A stretch of DNA of 40,372 nucleotides, taken from a virus. The notes beneath the pieces are model-generated. The model worked only from the letters and a program-made list of their open reading frames with translations. It had not been told where the DNA came from and did not search any database. The stretch is from the IMG/VR virus record IMGVR_UViG_3300025011_000090, positions 1 through 40,372 of that record. One strand, written 5' to 3'. A program made the translations under genes and the position numbers. Shown here piece after piece: positions 390-37,789 of this stretch. The stretch's first letter is position 1, and the number at the start of each line of letters is the position of its first letter.

Positions 390-509
390 AACGATTCCCA
401 CAATTCGCCACGATTCGCATAGGGCTGGAAATGTGAAAAACCACACTATAATTAATTAACAACTTCACAATTCCACAATTCGCACCACTCCTATATGTAT
501 TTTTTTAAA

Positions 510-530
510 CACTATATATAGTATATAGTG
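510..530. repeat. Inverted repeat at the centre of the array
   Basis: CACTATAT and ATATAGTG form perfect eight-base arms around a five-base loop. It lies midway between the forward and reverse repeat clusters. The surrounding DNA is almost pure A/T and could melt easily. Confidence 0.5.
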
Positions 531-568
531 GGTATTGTGTTATTTATATATAAATATAAACTTCAGTA

Positions 569-595
569 ATATCAATGGTTTTAGACTATTGATAT
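569..595. repeat. Second inverted repeat in the array centre
   Basis: ATATCAAT and ATTGATAT form eight-base arms around an eleven-base loop. Together with 510-530 it fills the spacer of the symmetrical repeat array. No gene is present here. Confidence 0.4.
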
Positions 596-707
596 ATTTT
601 TATAATTAAAATAAAAAATAATATCTTATAGAGGGCGAATTGCCGAATTGTGAAATAAAAACCAATTATATCTTTAAAAAACACAATTCGATGGGGTGCG
701 AATTGTG

Positions 708-914
708 GGAAATGTCAATAATTTATACTATTTTAGAAAAAACATTACCCGTATAACACCATAAATATTGACTATGTATAACATAATATCAAAAGTAATA
801 TATTAAGAAATATTAAGAATATAGAAAAAGGCTAGGATATACCAAGGACATGCGTTAAGAGATATCGATGTATATATAAACAATTTATAAATAAAATAAA
901 AATATAAATCTATA
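708..914. other. AT-rich stretch without a gene
   Basis: No open frame with a ribosome site, no convincing hairpin and no copy of the array unit was found between the last repeat and the small-RNA promoter. It contains ordinary AT-rich spacer sequence only. Confidence 0.5.
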
Positions 915-4013: not shown

Positions 4014-4033
4014 TATTTGTGAAAGGAAAAACA

Positions 4034-4399
4034 ATGGCAGCAGGAAGAAAAGTACAAGATGTTTTTCAGGAATTAGGGAATACTGAAATATATCACGAAA
4101 TAGATTTTAAATTTAATGCACCGCATCATTATATAGTTTTAAATAAGCATGAATGCAAAGAACCATTGGGTTTTATTAATTTTCAAGAAGGTGCAATAAG
4201 TGAAGTAGGCATAAATGGTGTTCAAAATATTGATTTACTAGCAATAGTAAAGAATAATCTTGAACATTTCCAAAAATCAGAATTTGCTTGTAGGGAAAAT
4301 GCTATTGCTATAACTCATATAGAAACAGCAATGGCATTTTTAGCAAAAAGAACTTTAGGCAGAATTCAAAGAAGTGTTGAGGGTACACATCAGGTTTAG
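4034..4399 (+). CDS. Tad1/Acb2-like signal-nucleotide sponge candidate
   Basis: 121 aa from the ATG at 4034; the in-frame GTG at 4019 is part of the leader element. An N-terminal strand-rich part (HHYIVLN, PLGFINFQEGAI, EVGINGVQNIDLLAIV) is followed by a helical hairpin with the sequence FACRENAIAITHIETAMAFL, AKRTLGRIQRSVEGTH. This C-terminal pattern is what I know from phage proteins annotated as Acb2/Tad1 hairpin-domain proteins. Characterised members bind the small signalling nucleotides made by Thoeris or CBASS immunity and so block the effector. Its place among small accessory genes fits an anti-defence role. Whether the ligand-binding residues are kept cannot be judged without a structure-based alignment. 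Confidence 0.6.
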   Translation: MAAGRKVQDVFQELGNTEIYHEIDFKFNAPHHYIVLNKHECKEPLGFINFQEGAISEVGINGVQNIDLLAIVKNNLEHFQKSEFACRENAIAITHIETAMAFLAKRTLGRIQRSVEGTHQV

Positions 4400-4437
4400 T
4401 TGTTAAATTATTTAGTAATTTGTGAAAGAAAAACATT

Positions 4438-6402: not shown

Positions 6403-7029
6403 ATGGTTAATTTTAATGTCCCACAGGTTGTTTCTGATTTGTTAAAATCTTTAAATCCAACACAATCAGATTATATGGAAAAAGATTATTTTATAGAAAG
6501 GGAAGCTATTAAAGAAGCTATCGGCGCATCAACCGACACAGCCAACACAGACCCAGACGCAGATTCAACTCTTAGGTCTGATGTTAAAGGTTTGATTGAA
6601 AACACAACCAAAGAAAATCCTTTTAATACTGCTTACGGACAAATAGTTACCTCAATAGAGGAAAGCTTTTTAGCAAGAAAGCTTAGAGAAGGAAGATTCA
6701 GAAGAGTAGGTGTAACCTCGCAAGCAATAAATGGCACTCTTGTAGGAAAATCAATTAGAGGTGCGACAGCAGATACAGTATTTTATCCTAATAGATTATT
6801 TTTAAGTTCCAACGTAGCTTGTAGTGGTTATTTTGAAATAGTAACAGGTGTTGCAGATGCTGATACTATAAGAAGAAGTTATTCTTTACCAGCAGCAGGA
6901 GTTCAAGCGTTTGATTTGCCTGATGGTTATTATGTATTGCCAACAGGATCAGTAAACTCATACACAACAGCAACAAGTGGAACTTTAGATTTTGAAGTTC
7001 AAGGAGTTGAGGTGGCATATAATGGCTAA
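6403..7029 (+). CDS. Hypothetical protein, probably virion-associated
   Basis: 208 aa. The N-terminal 90 residues are helical and charged; the rest is strand-rich with small and aromatic residues (SRGATADTVFYPNRLFLSSN..., YYVLPTGSVNSYTTATSGTLDFEVQGVEV). This looks like a structural beta-sandwich of a virion or receptor-binding protein. It overlaps the SGNH hydrolase gene by eight bases, so they are translated together and may form one surface structure. No family is recognised. The nucleotide composition is less AT-biased around 6530-6560 than nearby genes. Confidence 0.45.
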   Translation: MVNFNVPQVVSDLLKSLNPTQSDYMEKDYFIEREAIKEAIGASTDTANTDPDADSTLRSDVKGLIENTTKENPFNTAYGQIVTSIEESFLARKLREGRFRRVGVTSQAINGTLVGKSIRGATADTVFYPNRLFLSSNVACSGYFEIVTGVADADTIRRSYSLPAAGVQAFDLPDGYYVLPTGSVNSYTTATSGTLDFEVQGVEVAYNG

Positions 7030-8317
7030 GATTCTTGAGTTACATCCTGCACAAGTCAGAAATACTTTAACAGGTTATCATCCACCAGAAAATAGAAAGT
7101 TTTATTCCAAATGGTTTGATTCATCTGGAAATAATAATCATGGTGTTTTAAATAGCGAACTATATTATTTTGATTCTCGTGGTGGATGGCTTGGTTCTTG
7201 GGATTTTAATAACTATTGGCACTTATATACAGGTCTTAATGGTTCTTATCTTGCAATACCAACATTAAATACAACTAATTTTCCACAAGCAGAAGGAACT
7301 ATTTTATTCAACATAAATGTAACAGAATGGACAAATATTAACCAAGCAATGATTTTTGGTTCTTTCGGTAATCAAAACATTTTTTGTCGTGTTAATCAGA
7401 CAGGAAGTGAATATGGATTACAAACTGGTTTTATAGGCTCTGATGGTGTTTATAAAGCTGTTATTGGTTTTGCAGATGCAGCAACAAATAGAATAACTAT
7501 TGGTGTTATTACCAAGATAGCTTTAAAATACAAAACAGGAGCAGGCGGTTATTTTGCACTATTTATTAATGGCGTTAAAGTTAAACAAGTAAGTATTTCT
7601 AATACAGAAACACCTATAAATCAACTATGTAATCTTGGAGGAAGTTCTTATACTGATAGAAAAAGGTATTATTATTTAATGATAGACAACACAGCATTGG
7701 CAGATCAAAGTATAATTGATATACAAAATGCAGATCAAAAAATACCAGAATATACTTTACCTTCATTAAATAAAACTTACGTTGCTATTGGTGATTCAAT
7801 CACATGGGCGTGTGCAAGTGGATTAAATTATCCAAATCTTTTACATGCTTATGTAAAAAATACTTACGGTAAAATGCAGTATTTAAATAAGGGTATTGGT
7901 GGAGAATGGGGTGGTGAGGCTGTAACTAATCTCCCTTGGACTGCTCTTTGTGCGGATATTGTTACAATTGCACTTGGTATGAATGATTGTGCAGGTGGTG
8001 GAAGTGGAACTGCTCTGTATAAAACAAACCTTGAAACTATTATTGATTATCTTAGGGTAAGAAATCCTGATGTAAAAATAATTCTCTGTACTCCATCTGG
8101 TACTTCTGATGCCAATAGAACTCCCTACATTGCTTCTTATAGAACCGCAATGCAGGAAGTGGCAACTGCAAAAAATACCTATATCTGTAATTTCCACGAA
8201 GCGGTTACGGATGCCAATATAGGTAGTTATTCTTCTGACAGCATCCATCCAAATACAGCAGGTCATGTTTTGTTAATGGCAAAATTACAGCCAATTATTG
8301 ATGAAATTTTAAGTTAA
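7022..8317 (+). CDS. SGNH/GDSL hydrolase with N-terminal lectin-like domain
   Basis: 431 aa from the ATG at 7022, which has GAGGTG upstream. Residues about 20-240 look like a laminin-G/concanavalin-type jelly roll (FDSSGNNNHGVL, TEWTNINQAMIFGSFG, YFALFINGVKV). Residues about 250-431 are an SGNH hydrolase: block I GDSIT with nucleophile Ser259, block II GIGGE, block III GMND, block V DSIHP with Asp406 and His409. The family removes acyl groups from lipids or polysaccharides. With a glycan-binding domain attached it probably deacylates a host surface polysaccharide during adsorption, or modifies the host surface. It is far from the tail genes, which is unusual for a tail-spike enzyme. Confidence 0.8.
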   Translation: MAKILELHPAQVRNTLTGYHPPENRKFYSKWFDSSGNNNHGVLNSELYYFDSRGGWLGSWDFNNYWHLYTGLNGSYLAIPTLNTTNFPQAEGTILFNINVTEWTNINQAMIFGSFGNQNIFCRVNQTGSEYGLQTGFIGSDGVYKAVIGFADAATNRITIGVITKIALKYKTGAGGYFALFINGVKVKQVSISNTETPINQLCNLGGSSYTDRKRYYYLMIDNTALADQSIIDIQNADQKIPEYTLPSLNKTYVAIGDSITWACASGLNYPNLLHAYVKNTYGKMQYLNKGIGGEWGGEAVTNLPWTALCADIVTIALGMNDCAGGGSGTALYKTNLETIIDYLRVRNPDVKIILCTPSGTSDANRTPYIASYRTAMQEVATAKNTYICNFHEAVTDANIGSYSSDSIHPNTAGHVLLMAKLQPIIDEILS

Positions 8318-9201: not shown

Positions 9202-9237
9202 TTTCGTATGGGTAAAATTTTGGGAGGATTCGGAAGC

Positions 9238-10110
9238 ATGCAGAATGCGGTATTTGAGGCATTACAAGTTAATGTAAAATCTTTTAACATTGTTCGGGCA
9301 ATTACCGACAAAAACCTTTTTGGAAGAATTACACTTTCACCTACAGCAAGATTAGTTTTATTTAATTTAGCTAATATGTACAATCTTAAGAAGGGCTACA
9401 GCTTCCCTAAAATTAAAAAGTTAATACTTTGTACAGGAACAACAGAAAAAAGCGTTATTTCGGCTTTAAAGGAACTTAGAAATAAACATTTAATTGTTGT
9501 TTCAAAAGATAACGATAAAACGGAATATTATTTTACTAAAAATTTCTTCAATCTTTTGGAAATTTTTTCTGAAGAAACTGAAAATTTTTCTTCTCAACCT
9601 GAAAAAATTACAGGTACATGTATAGAACAGAAAAAAGAACAGATTAAAACAGATAATAATTTTTCTTTTAAAAATCTTTTAGATTTATTTAAAACTAATG
9701 CAATTGTTTATTTTGAAGAAATTTCAAATCTTTCAGAAGGTGATAAAGAACATTTATGCAAGATTAAGCTGAATAGAACCGCTTTAACTAACTTCCAGAA
9801 AGAAAACCTTGATAAATTTATAATGCTTTCTGAAAATGAAATAAATATAATTAATCAGAAAGAGCCTTATTTTAAGCAGGAAAACATTGATATTTATTAT
9901 AATTCCAGAATGAAGAAAATCAGAGAATATAAACAAGAGCCACAAAAAAATGAAGGGAAGCCACAAAAAAGTGAAAGGGAAGCAGTTTTATCAATGCTTA
10001 TATGCGGATATAAAGGATTTAAAAATAACAGAATGCAATTAACAACTTTCTTAAGCCGGAATAAAGCTAAAATGGAACAATTTAATATTACTGAATCAGA
10101 ATTACTATAA
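9238..10110 (+). CDS. Replication initiator-like winged-helix protein
   Basis: 290 aa from the ATG at 9238, chosen because GGGAGG lies ten bases upstream; an ATG at 9208 has no site. The N-terminal part (about residues 30-95) is a winged helix: LSPTARLVLFNLANMYN, FPKIKKLILCTGTTEKSVISALKELRNKHLIVV. This form is common in plasmid and phage replication proteins (HTH_36/DnaD-like). The middle is charged and helical; the C-terminal 50 residues (SMLICGYKGFKNNRMQLTTFLSRNK) may bind DNA or a helicase loader. Its divergent coiled-coil partner and leader peptide make a compact plasmid-type replicon. No polymerase or helicase gene was seen in the window, so host enzymes would do the synthesis. Confidence 0.6.
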   Translation: MQNAVFEALQVNVKSFNIVRAITDKNLFGRITLSPTARLVLFNLANMYNLKKGYSFPKIKKLILCTGTTEKSVISALKELRNKHLIVVSKDNDKTEYYFTKNFFNLLEIFSEETENFSSQPEKITGTCIEQKKEQIKTDNNFSFKNLLDLFKTNAIVYFEEISNLSEGDKEHLCKIKLNRTALTNFQKENLDKFIMLSENEINIINQKEPYFKQENIDIYYNSRMKKIREYKQEPQKNEGKPQKSEREAVLSMLICGYKGFKNNRMQLTTFLSRNKAKMEQFNITESELL

Positions 10111-10779: not shown

Positions 10780-12525
10780 ATGTTTAATGCTGCTGAAATA
10801 ATTCAAAGAAGAAAAGATTTATGGGTTGAAAATCAAAATATTCAGCTTGATAAAGAATATGTTAATTGTATTGCTGAATTTCTTTGTGATGCAACTAATC
10901 CAAATTCAGAGTTATTAAGGAAAGAAATTAAATTAAACCCTGAACTTTTAATTGAAATGGTTTTTGTTATTGTAGAAAAGGGTGATAATAGTCAAGAAGA
11001 TGCAAGAACTGTACCATTTTTTTTAAATAAAGTGCAAAAAAGTTTTGTTGATGATTTAAATATTGCAATAGAACAGTATAAAGCTGGATTAAGAAATTTT
11101 TTAAAATTTATAATATTAAAAGGTAGACAGCAAGGATTTACAAGTTTTATAACAGCTTATCAATTGGCTAGATGCATAACTAGCCAAAATTTTAGCGGAT
11201 ATACATTAGCTGATAATTCAGGGAATTCACAAGATATTTTTAATAAAAAGGCTAAATTCCCTTATGATAGTTTACCTGAATTATTAAAACCTACAGAGAA
11301 ATATAATACAAAAAATGACCTATTCTTTTCTGGTTTAAATAGTTCATGGAAGATTGGAACCGCTGAAGCAAAAGAAACAGGAAGATCGAAAACAATAAAC
11401 TTTTTTCATGGTTCAGAAAGTGCTTTTTGGATTTCAATTTCTAGTATTCTGGCTGGTTTAGGTGAAGCTATTACAAAATCCAGTATTCAAATACTTGAAA
11501 CTACAGGGAATGGTTATAATGAATTCAAAACTATTTGGGATGAGGCAGTTAAGGGTGAAAATAATTGGGAACCAAAGTTTTATGAATGGTGGCTAACTCC
11601 TGAATATAGACTTAATTTTGAAACTCATGAAATAGAGGAAAAATTTAAAGAACAAGTTGAAAATGAAGTAAATGATTTTTTCAAAACGCTTAACAGTTTG
11701 AGAATATATCAGGGCTTAGATTGGAATCAATTATATTGGTATGAAAACAAAAGAAAGGATAAAAAAGAATTACTACCGCAAGAATACCCTTGTACACCAC
11801 AAGAAGCTTTTGTTTCAACTGGTAGAAAATATTTTGATGCTTCAAAAATTAAAAATATGCTTATTATTGCAAGCAGTAAAAAGAAATTAGAATCAAAAGA
11901 TTTTGCCCATTTGGATCATCCATATTCAAAACTGTTTGATCCACCTTTAAGAGATGGAATGACTATTTATGATTATCCTAGAGTGGGGAAACACTATATT
12001 TTTGGTGCAGATGTTTCAGAAGGTCTTGATAATGATGCTTCGCATTGCAAACTTTTTGATTATGAAACAATGAGAGAAGTGGCACATATTCATGGGCAGT
12101 TTTCACCCGATTTATTTGGTGAATTAATAGTTAAATATGCAAAGCTTTACAACAATGCTTTTGGTGCAGTTGAAAGAAATAATCATGGTCATTTGACATT
12201 AGCTACAATTTATAAATATTTAGGTTATAAAAATATTTATAAAGAAATGGTATTAGATAAAACAAAAGAAAAAGAAACATTAAAACTCGGCTGGCTTACA
12301 ACTGAAAATTCAAAATATTTAATGTTAGATGAATTAGATACAGCAATTAGAGATGAATTAATTGAAATATATGATGAAGAATGTCTGAATGAATTATTTT
12401 CAGTTGTAACTGATAAAGATGGTAAGGTTAAAATTAATGGTAAGGATAGAACTGCTGCAAGTGCCATTGCTTATCAAATGAGAAAATTTTATAAAATTAA
12501 GAAAATTAATTTTGATGTTTTTTAA
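10780..12525 (+). CDS. Terminase large subunit
   Basis: 581 aa. The ATPase domain shows GRQQGFT (residues 115-121), the degenerate Walker A of the KARQxGF type common in large terminases, and a Walker B/catalytic region FFHGSESAFW with Glu213. The C-terminal RNase H-like nuclease has Asp411 (FGADVSEG), Glu465 (AVERNNHG) and Asp556 (KDRTAASA). It translocates DNA into the prohead and cuts it. An AAGG site precedes the ATG. The small subunit is not adjacent but at 1152. A hairpin (12533-12552) follows the gene and then a leftward accessory gene separates it from the portal. Confidence 0.9.
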   Translation: MFNAAEIIQRRKDLWVENQNIQLDKEYVNCIAEFLCDATNPNSELLRKEIKLNPELLIEMVFVIVEKGDNSQEDARTVPFFLNKVQKSFVDDLNIAIEQYKAGLRNFLKFIILKGRQQGFTSFITAYQLARCITSQNFSGYTLADNSGNSQDIFNKKAKFPYDSLPELLKPTEKYNTKNDLFFSGLNSSWKIGTAEAKETGRSKTINFFHGSESAFWISISSILAGLGEAITKSSIQILETTGNGYNEFKTIWDEAVKGENNWEPKFYEWWLTPEYRLNFETHEIEEKFKEQVENEVNDFFKTLNSLRIYQGLDWNQLYWYENKRKDKKELLPQEYPCTPQEAFVSTGRKYFDASKIKNMLIIASSKKKLESKDFAHLDHPYSKLFDPPLRDGMTIYDYPRVGKHYIFGADVSEGLDNDASHCKLFDYETMREVAHIHGQFSPDLFGELIVKYAKLYNNAFGAVERNNHGHLTLATIYKYLGYKNIYKEMVLDKTKEKETLKLGWLTTENSKYLMLDELDTAIRDELIEIYDEECLNELFSVVTDKDGKVKINGKDRTAASAIAYQMRKFYKIKKINFDVF

Positions 12526-15943: not shown

Positions 15944-15995
15944 AAAATCTGGTAATTAAATTGTTTGTGAAAGAAAAATACTAGGAGTAAGTAAA

Positions 15996-23690: not shown

Positions 23691-23727
23691 TTAACATAGC
23701 AGCGTATTTGTGAAAGGAAAATCATTT

Positions 23728-36657: not shown

Positions 36658-36732
36658 AATTATTTTCCTTTCACAATTTTATAGAGGGTACTTTTATAAG
36701 AGGATTATTTTTTAAAGCCCTTAAAATCGCTT

Positions 36733-37237: not shown

Positions 37238-37789
37238 TTAATACTCAATTCCGCACCTTGCCTTTACTTTAGGGTAATAATGTTTTGTTGGCTGCATTGT
37301 AGTAATCAAATCAGCAATTTCAATTAATTTTGGGTGTGCATGCCTTCCTGTTATTACAATTTCCATATTTTCAGTCTTGTTTTTCAACACTTTAATAACT
37401 TCATCAACACTGATAATATTTTGATGAATAAGATGATTTAACTCGTCAAGAATAATCATTTTGTAGCCCGATTCTTGATTTATACAGGTTTTGGCATAAT
37501 TCCAACCGTTTAATAAATGTATTTCATCTTCTTTAGTAAATTTACCAATTTTATTGAACCCGAATTGTTTAATTTCAATATTTTCAGGATATTTAACAAC
37601 GCTTAATGCTTCGCCATATTGCCATGCATCAGAGGCTTTCATAAATTGCAAAATCAAAACCTTCCAACCATGTCCGATTGCTCTCAATGTCAAGCCGAAA
37701 GCAGCAGTTGTTTTACCTTTTCCATTTCCTGTATAGATTTGTATAAATCCATGTTCATCAAAATTAGGATTAATAAGATTATTAGGCAT
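37238..37789 (-). CDS. Cob(I)alamin adenosyltransferase (CobO/BtuR family)
   Basis: 183 aa. The P-loop GNGKGKTT (residues 21-28), VLILQFMKASDAWQYGE, the Walker B-like MIILDELNHL, VITGRHAHPKLIEIADLIT and the C-terminus KARCGIEY are all those of ATP:corrinoid adenosyltransferases of the CobO/BtuR type, which transfer the adenosyl group of ATP to cob(I)alamin. Length is close to the family norm. It is unusual in a phage. Coenzyme B12 serves class II ribonucleotide reductases, and a dCTP deaminase-like gene is in the same operon, so a link to nucleotide supply is possible; no reductase is present in the window. AAGAAGG precedes the ATG. Confidence 0.85.
   Translation of the reverse strand: MPNNLINPNFDEHGFIQIYTGNGKGKTTAAFGLTLRAIGHGWKVLILQFMKASDAWQYGEALSVVKYPENIEIKQFGFNKIGKFTKEDEIHLLNGWNYAKTCINQESGYKMIILDELNHLIHQNIISVDEVIKVLKNKTENMEIVITGRHAHPKLIEIADLITTMQPTKHYYPKVKARCGIEY

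Follow-up and report, generated by a model that had tools for sequence, protein, structure and literature searches.

The window analyzed here is the whole 40,372-nt stretch of viral DNA. Its scanned proteins include a portal, prohead protease, HK97-type capsid protein, tail sheath, tape measure, baseplate J, and DNA-circularisation-like and GpP-like proteins. This set identifies a contractile-tailed phage. As the first-pass annotation had it, a leftward gene begins at position 178. The gene occupies 1-178 on the minus strand and continues through 40372-40164 as an intact 128-aa frame, and since this frame runs unbroken across the contig ends, the molecule is probably circular. A promoter-like site on the same strand at 247-275 (TTGACA-17-TATAGT, an 11/12 match to consensus and a consensus match only) points toward this gene. 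On the plus strand lie the genes for the small terminase, TerS (1152-1730, GP3_package), and for a DnaD/O-like winged-helix replication initiator, Rep (9208-10110). The window further encodes a serine resolvase (2043-2639) and the large terminase, TerL (10780-12525). Rep is the only recognized initiator gene in the window. The two terminase genes are 9 kb apart, with Rep and a GDSL-lipase-domain protein (6992-8317) encoded between them.

Between the leftward gene and terS sits a repeat array at 395-711, the densest cluster of short repeats in the 40-kb window. When 8-mers with at least 30% G+C are counted, the top score for a 320-bp stretch is six copies, reached by CACAATTC from 399 onward, versus 2-3 in 40 Markov-2 simulations, so the array is not a product of chance. 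The repeat unit CACAATTCGC occurs exactly at 399 (+), 474 (+), and 698 (-), with one mismatch at 409 (CACGATTCGC), 682, and 643 (-), and with two mismatches at 466 and 635 (-), each of which is 8 bp from a neighboring unit. A weight matrix built from these eight units adds weaker ones, overlooked on first pass, at 426 (-), 530 (-), 707 (-), and 390 (+). The left arm (395-483, +) comprises the units at 399, 409, 426 (inverted and weak), 466, and 474, with the weak unit at 390 (+) just outside it. The right arm (635-711, -) comprises those at 635, 643, 682 (inverted), and 698, and its end is overlapped by the weak unit at 707-716 (-). The units at 682 and 698 pair without mismatch over 9 bp around a loop of 8 nt, giving a hairpin that spans 682-707. 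The first-pass annotation had listed the four forward units from 399 to 474, the three reverse units at 635, 643, and 698, this hairpin, and two inverted repeats in the AT-rich center, and all of these stand. Its further statement that the array is more than 900 bases from any coding start other than the leftward gene's is wrong, as terS starts 445 bp from the array's end.

What had also been missed is that the layout as a whole is a mirror image, with the two arms flanking a 151-bp core. Measured from the innermost unit, the left-arm units lie at offsets of -8, -48 (inverted), -65, and -75 bp, and the right-arm units at -8, -47 (inverted), and -63 bp. When weak units are included, giving 11 in total, five pairs (10 units) share one mirror axis to within 2 bp, an arrangement reached in 0 of 3000 random placements. 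Restricting the test to the eight strong units leaves three mirror pairs (p = 0.01), the safer figure, since the matrix that picked out the weak units had been trained on the strong ones. An alignment of the complete intergenic halves to each other is less informative. Under strict scoring 5 of 500 shuffles score better and the alignment misses the array, and under relaxed scoring 84 of 500 score better. The weakness of the relaxed alignment reflects the tendency of AT-rich DNA to align with itself, and the unit-position test was therefore used instead. Folded as single-stranded DNA, 390-716 is far more stable than its shuffles (z = -6.8), as expected for mirrored arms.

The core (484-634) is 18.5% G+C (81% A+T) and is presumed to be a melting region, although other segments of the genome are richer in A+T. 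It contains a perfect 9+9 inverted repeat at 510-530 (CACTATATA-TAG-TATATAGTG) and a second with one mismatch at 569-595 (ATATCAATGG-7 nt-CTATTGATAT). Matches to the DnaA-box and IHF-site consensus show no concentration at the array, and an Rfam search gave no match. The repeat at 569-595 is shaped like two core sites around 7 bp, and the resolvase gene begins 1.3 kb rightward. The array could on these grounds be a recombination site, either one at which the serine resolvase acts (res) or one of attP/Xer type, with the core's inverted repeats serving as crossover. We consider this very improbable. No tyrosine integrase was found in Pfam scans of the window's proteins, which left out several small ORFs. 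Promoter-like motifs just 5' of the resolvase gene are also common, by eye, to the window and to Cetobacterium/Fusobacterium plasmids, and since res usually lies directly 5' of its resolvase gene, the resolvase's own upstream region is a likelier res than the array.

The gene nearest to the array is the leftward 128-aa gene, which points away from it, and its product is a candidate binder by context. The N-terminus of this protein has sub-threshold matches to HicB (E = 0.063) and to an Arc-like domain (E = 0.06), which weakly support a ribbon-helix-helix (RHH) fold. If it is an RHH protein, the array might be a centromere or operator bound by an RHH protein, most simply this one, whose dimers would coat the arms and either bring sister copies together in pairs or act as repressors of the leftward promoter. 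Type Ib/II centromeres such as TP228 parH and R1 parC (PMC5016525) offer a likeness, with short repeats upstream of what is here a possible RHH gene; they differ in that no motor ATPase was found here, and the RHH identity of the 128-aa protein is itself putative. Among the scanned proteins no ParA/ParM/TubZ-type motor NTPase was found. An alignment-free structure model of the 128-aa protein shows one helix and no ribbon, though with an N-terminal pLDDT of 64 it is uninformative, and the best leftward promoter match (275-247) falls about 115 bp outside the array. We regard the RHH-bound site as unlikely on balance, yet as the strongest of the rivals, a standing that it keeps because of the possible RHH gene next door.

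To place the array in a broader context, we carried out a gene-blind scan of TerL relatives, which share about 32-51% identity, and of all other loci collected. The filter called for a 7-mer in at least five copies within 300 bp, at least two per orientation, and little coding overlap. Apart from the window itself, the filter let through eight distinct loci. Half of them show the same grammar as the window's array, with non-palindromic units, 8-11 bp tandem spacing, and both orientations: L066 (= L015; 4990-5148), L117 (6314-6459), L115 (6084-6348), and L010 (4267-4530). All four are TerL-related prophages, the first three of Paenibacillus type. Their opposed-repeat arrays, of 6-8 units, are intergenic like the window's, and each beats all 100 shuffles of its own flank. 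They differ from the window's array in unit sequence and in adjoining a primase- or initiator-like gene. In L066, L117, and L115 the array is directly 3' of a VapE-like gene and is followed by a small gene, which is VRR-NUC by Pfam in L066 and similar-looking in the other two. In L010 it directly follows a gene of 836 aa that matches DUF3854. Only the L010 array is significantly mirror-symmetric (three pairs among seven units, p = 0.007). L027, one further homolog of those primases and VapE-type, has no array, and the resulting four-versus-one count is biased, because the primases were found via the arrays, and is not a frequency. All four arrays resemble origins of the PICI type, here carried by complete phages. 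The other loci to pass are of different kinds. The repeats of L035 and L030 are parS-like, consisting of the palindrome TTTCACGTGAAA next to ParB-like genes, while L037 and L040 carry palindromic hairpin repeats with 15-30 bp spacing among cellular or capsid genes.

For the window's own array, two unit patterns searched against the viral collection gave 2 + 12 contigs, none of which has a comparable array or a match to any window protein. Searching by TerS and by the 128-aa protein returned no relatives, and searching by Rep returned only L002 (59 kb). This contig, with a Rep of the same family, has no such array, which speaks against Rep as the binder.

The comparative data also bear on packaging. 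The array could be a pac or cosB-like site recognized by TerS, whose gene is the next one rightward, and the pac of SPP1 likewise has repeat sets near terS (PMC4737164). However, the SPP1/SF6 pac is built of direct repeats that extend across the start of terS, where here a mirrored array ends 445 bp upstream, and the SF6 TerS domain showed little specificity for the SPP1 repeats (PMC4737164). No array passed the filter beside the small terminase in the neighborhoods of TerS homologs (L042, L043, L140, and L142), two of which, L042 and L043, have only ~0.5-0.7 kb of sequence upstream. In the TerL relatives, moreover, the arrays follow primase- or initiator-like genes several kb upstream of TerL. 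A packaging site thus appears improbable, more so than an RHH-bound one. An alignment-free structure model of the window's TerS (pLDDT 37) is uninformative.

Our preferred reading makes the array the site where a circular phage starts its replication, a tentative view to which we give slightly less than an even chance. It is the best reading because TerL-related phages keep arrays of the same grammar beside replication genes. An origin, an RHH-bound centromere, and a packaging site had all been put forward on first pass; the comparative evidence favors the origin, and none of the three is proven. The array itself offers mirrored iteron sets, an AT-rich core, and an intergenic position, and the window encodes a DnaD/O-like initiator. 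The first-pass annotation recommended a GC-skew check. In it, the cumulative minimum falls at 512, inside the core, which fits an origin, but this is also where the genes change direction and where the array contributes a strand bias of its own, and at third codon positions the skew shows no clear flip. Also counting against an origin are the lack of any self-loading helicase among the scanned proteins, the 8.5 kb that separate the initiator gene from the array, and the missing arrays of L002, despite its Rep, and of L027, despite its VapE-type primase. Under the origin reading, the iterons of 8-10 bp in both arms would be bound by an initiator that the phage encodes, the winged-helix Rep being the most plausible candidate, and their opposed orientation would set two initiator assemblies head to head. 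The AT-rich core between the assemblies would then melt, and helicase would load on each strand. The start of replication at this site, the identity of the binding protein, and the melting step are each inferred. Within the Rep gene, two tandem copies of a 20-mer (9938-9978; 90% alike, 21 bp apart) form a weak alternative iteron site.

A known parallel in layout is with the origins of PICIs and SaPIs, in which two opposed sets of short iterons flank an AT-rich region (PMC6092414, PMC9894130, PMC7581432). In SaPI origins, oppositely oriented repeats direct two head-to-head helicases (PMC9894130), and the iterons to which the SaPI Rep helicases bind come directly after the helicase gene (PMC7581432). 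The window's array has the opposed iteron sets. It differs in two respects: in PICIs and SaPIs the origin directly follows the initiator gene, whereas here the initiator is far away, and those elements rely on a self-loading Rep helicase, whereas Pfam scans and tblastn of four primases found no VapE/D5-type self-loading helicase in the window. No replicative helicase was found among the scanned proteins either. Because these two features are absent, we do not file the array as a PICI-type origin. The origin of lambda-type phages, with an O protein and iterons, offers a second likeness, in that iterons adjoin AT-rich DNA and the window's initiator is a weak O-like match. In lambda, though, the iterons repeat in a single orientation within the O gene, and AT-rich DNA adjoins them on just one side.

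It is conceivable that the PICI layout of opposed iterons around an AT-rich core is at work in a complete tailed phage, which would fire it with a distant DnaD/O-like initiator and the host helicase in place of a self-loading one. We consider this more specific proposal doubtful, and a good deal less probable than the origin reading as such. Were it true, more than one class of initiator could work with the layout. Arrays that follow VapE-like genes in several prophages, together with an array in a phage without a recognized helicase of that kind, suggest a wider distribution, and if replication does start at such sites, phages and their satellites would have either shared the layout or arrived at it separately.

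Several other features of the window merit mention. The serine resolvase is 65% identical to a Cetobacterium somerae plasmid protein and 63% identical to a Fusobacterium varium plasmid protein, a hint of plasmid-like maintenance or of a fusobacterial host. Unexpectedly for a phage, the gene at 37238-37789 encodes a member of the CobO/BtuR cobalamin adenosyltransferase family, with a strong Pfam match (E = 1.8e-55). At 4019-4399 lies the gene for a small protein whose match to the Acb2/Tad1 hairpin domain is sub-threshold (E = 0.0015). Related proteins occur in L062 and L075, and it is a possible anti-defense protein. Finally, the motif TTGTGAAAG(G/A) recurs across the window, with 11 matches at up to one mismatch versus 4.4 expected. 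Sites include 195-204, 977-986, 1106-1115, 2041-2050, 4017-4026, 4420-4429, 15965-15974, 23708-23717, and 36667-36676, and several are just 5' of start codons, so that the motif looks like a shared translation leader.
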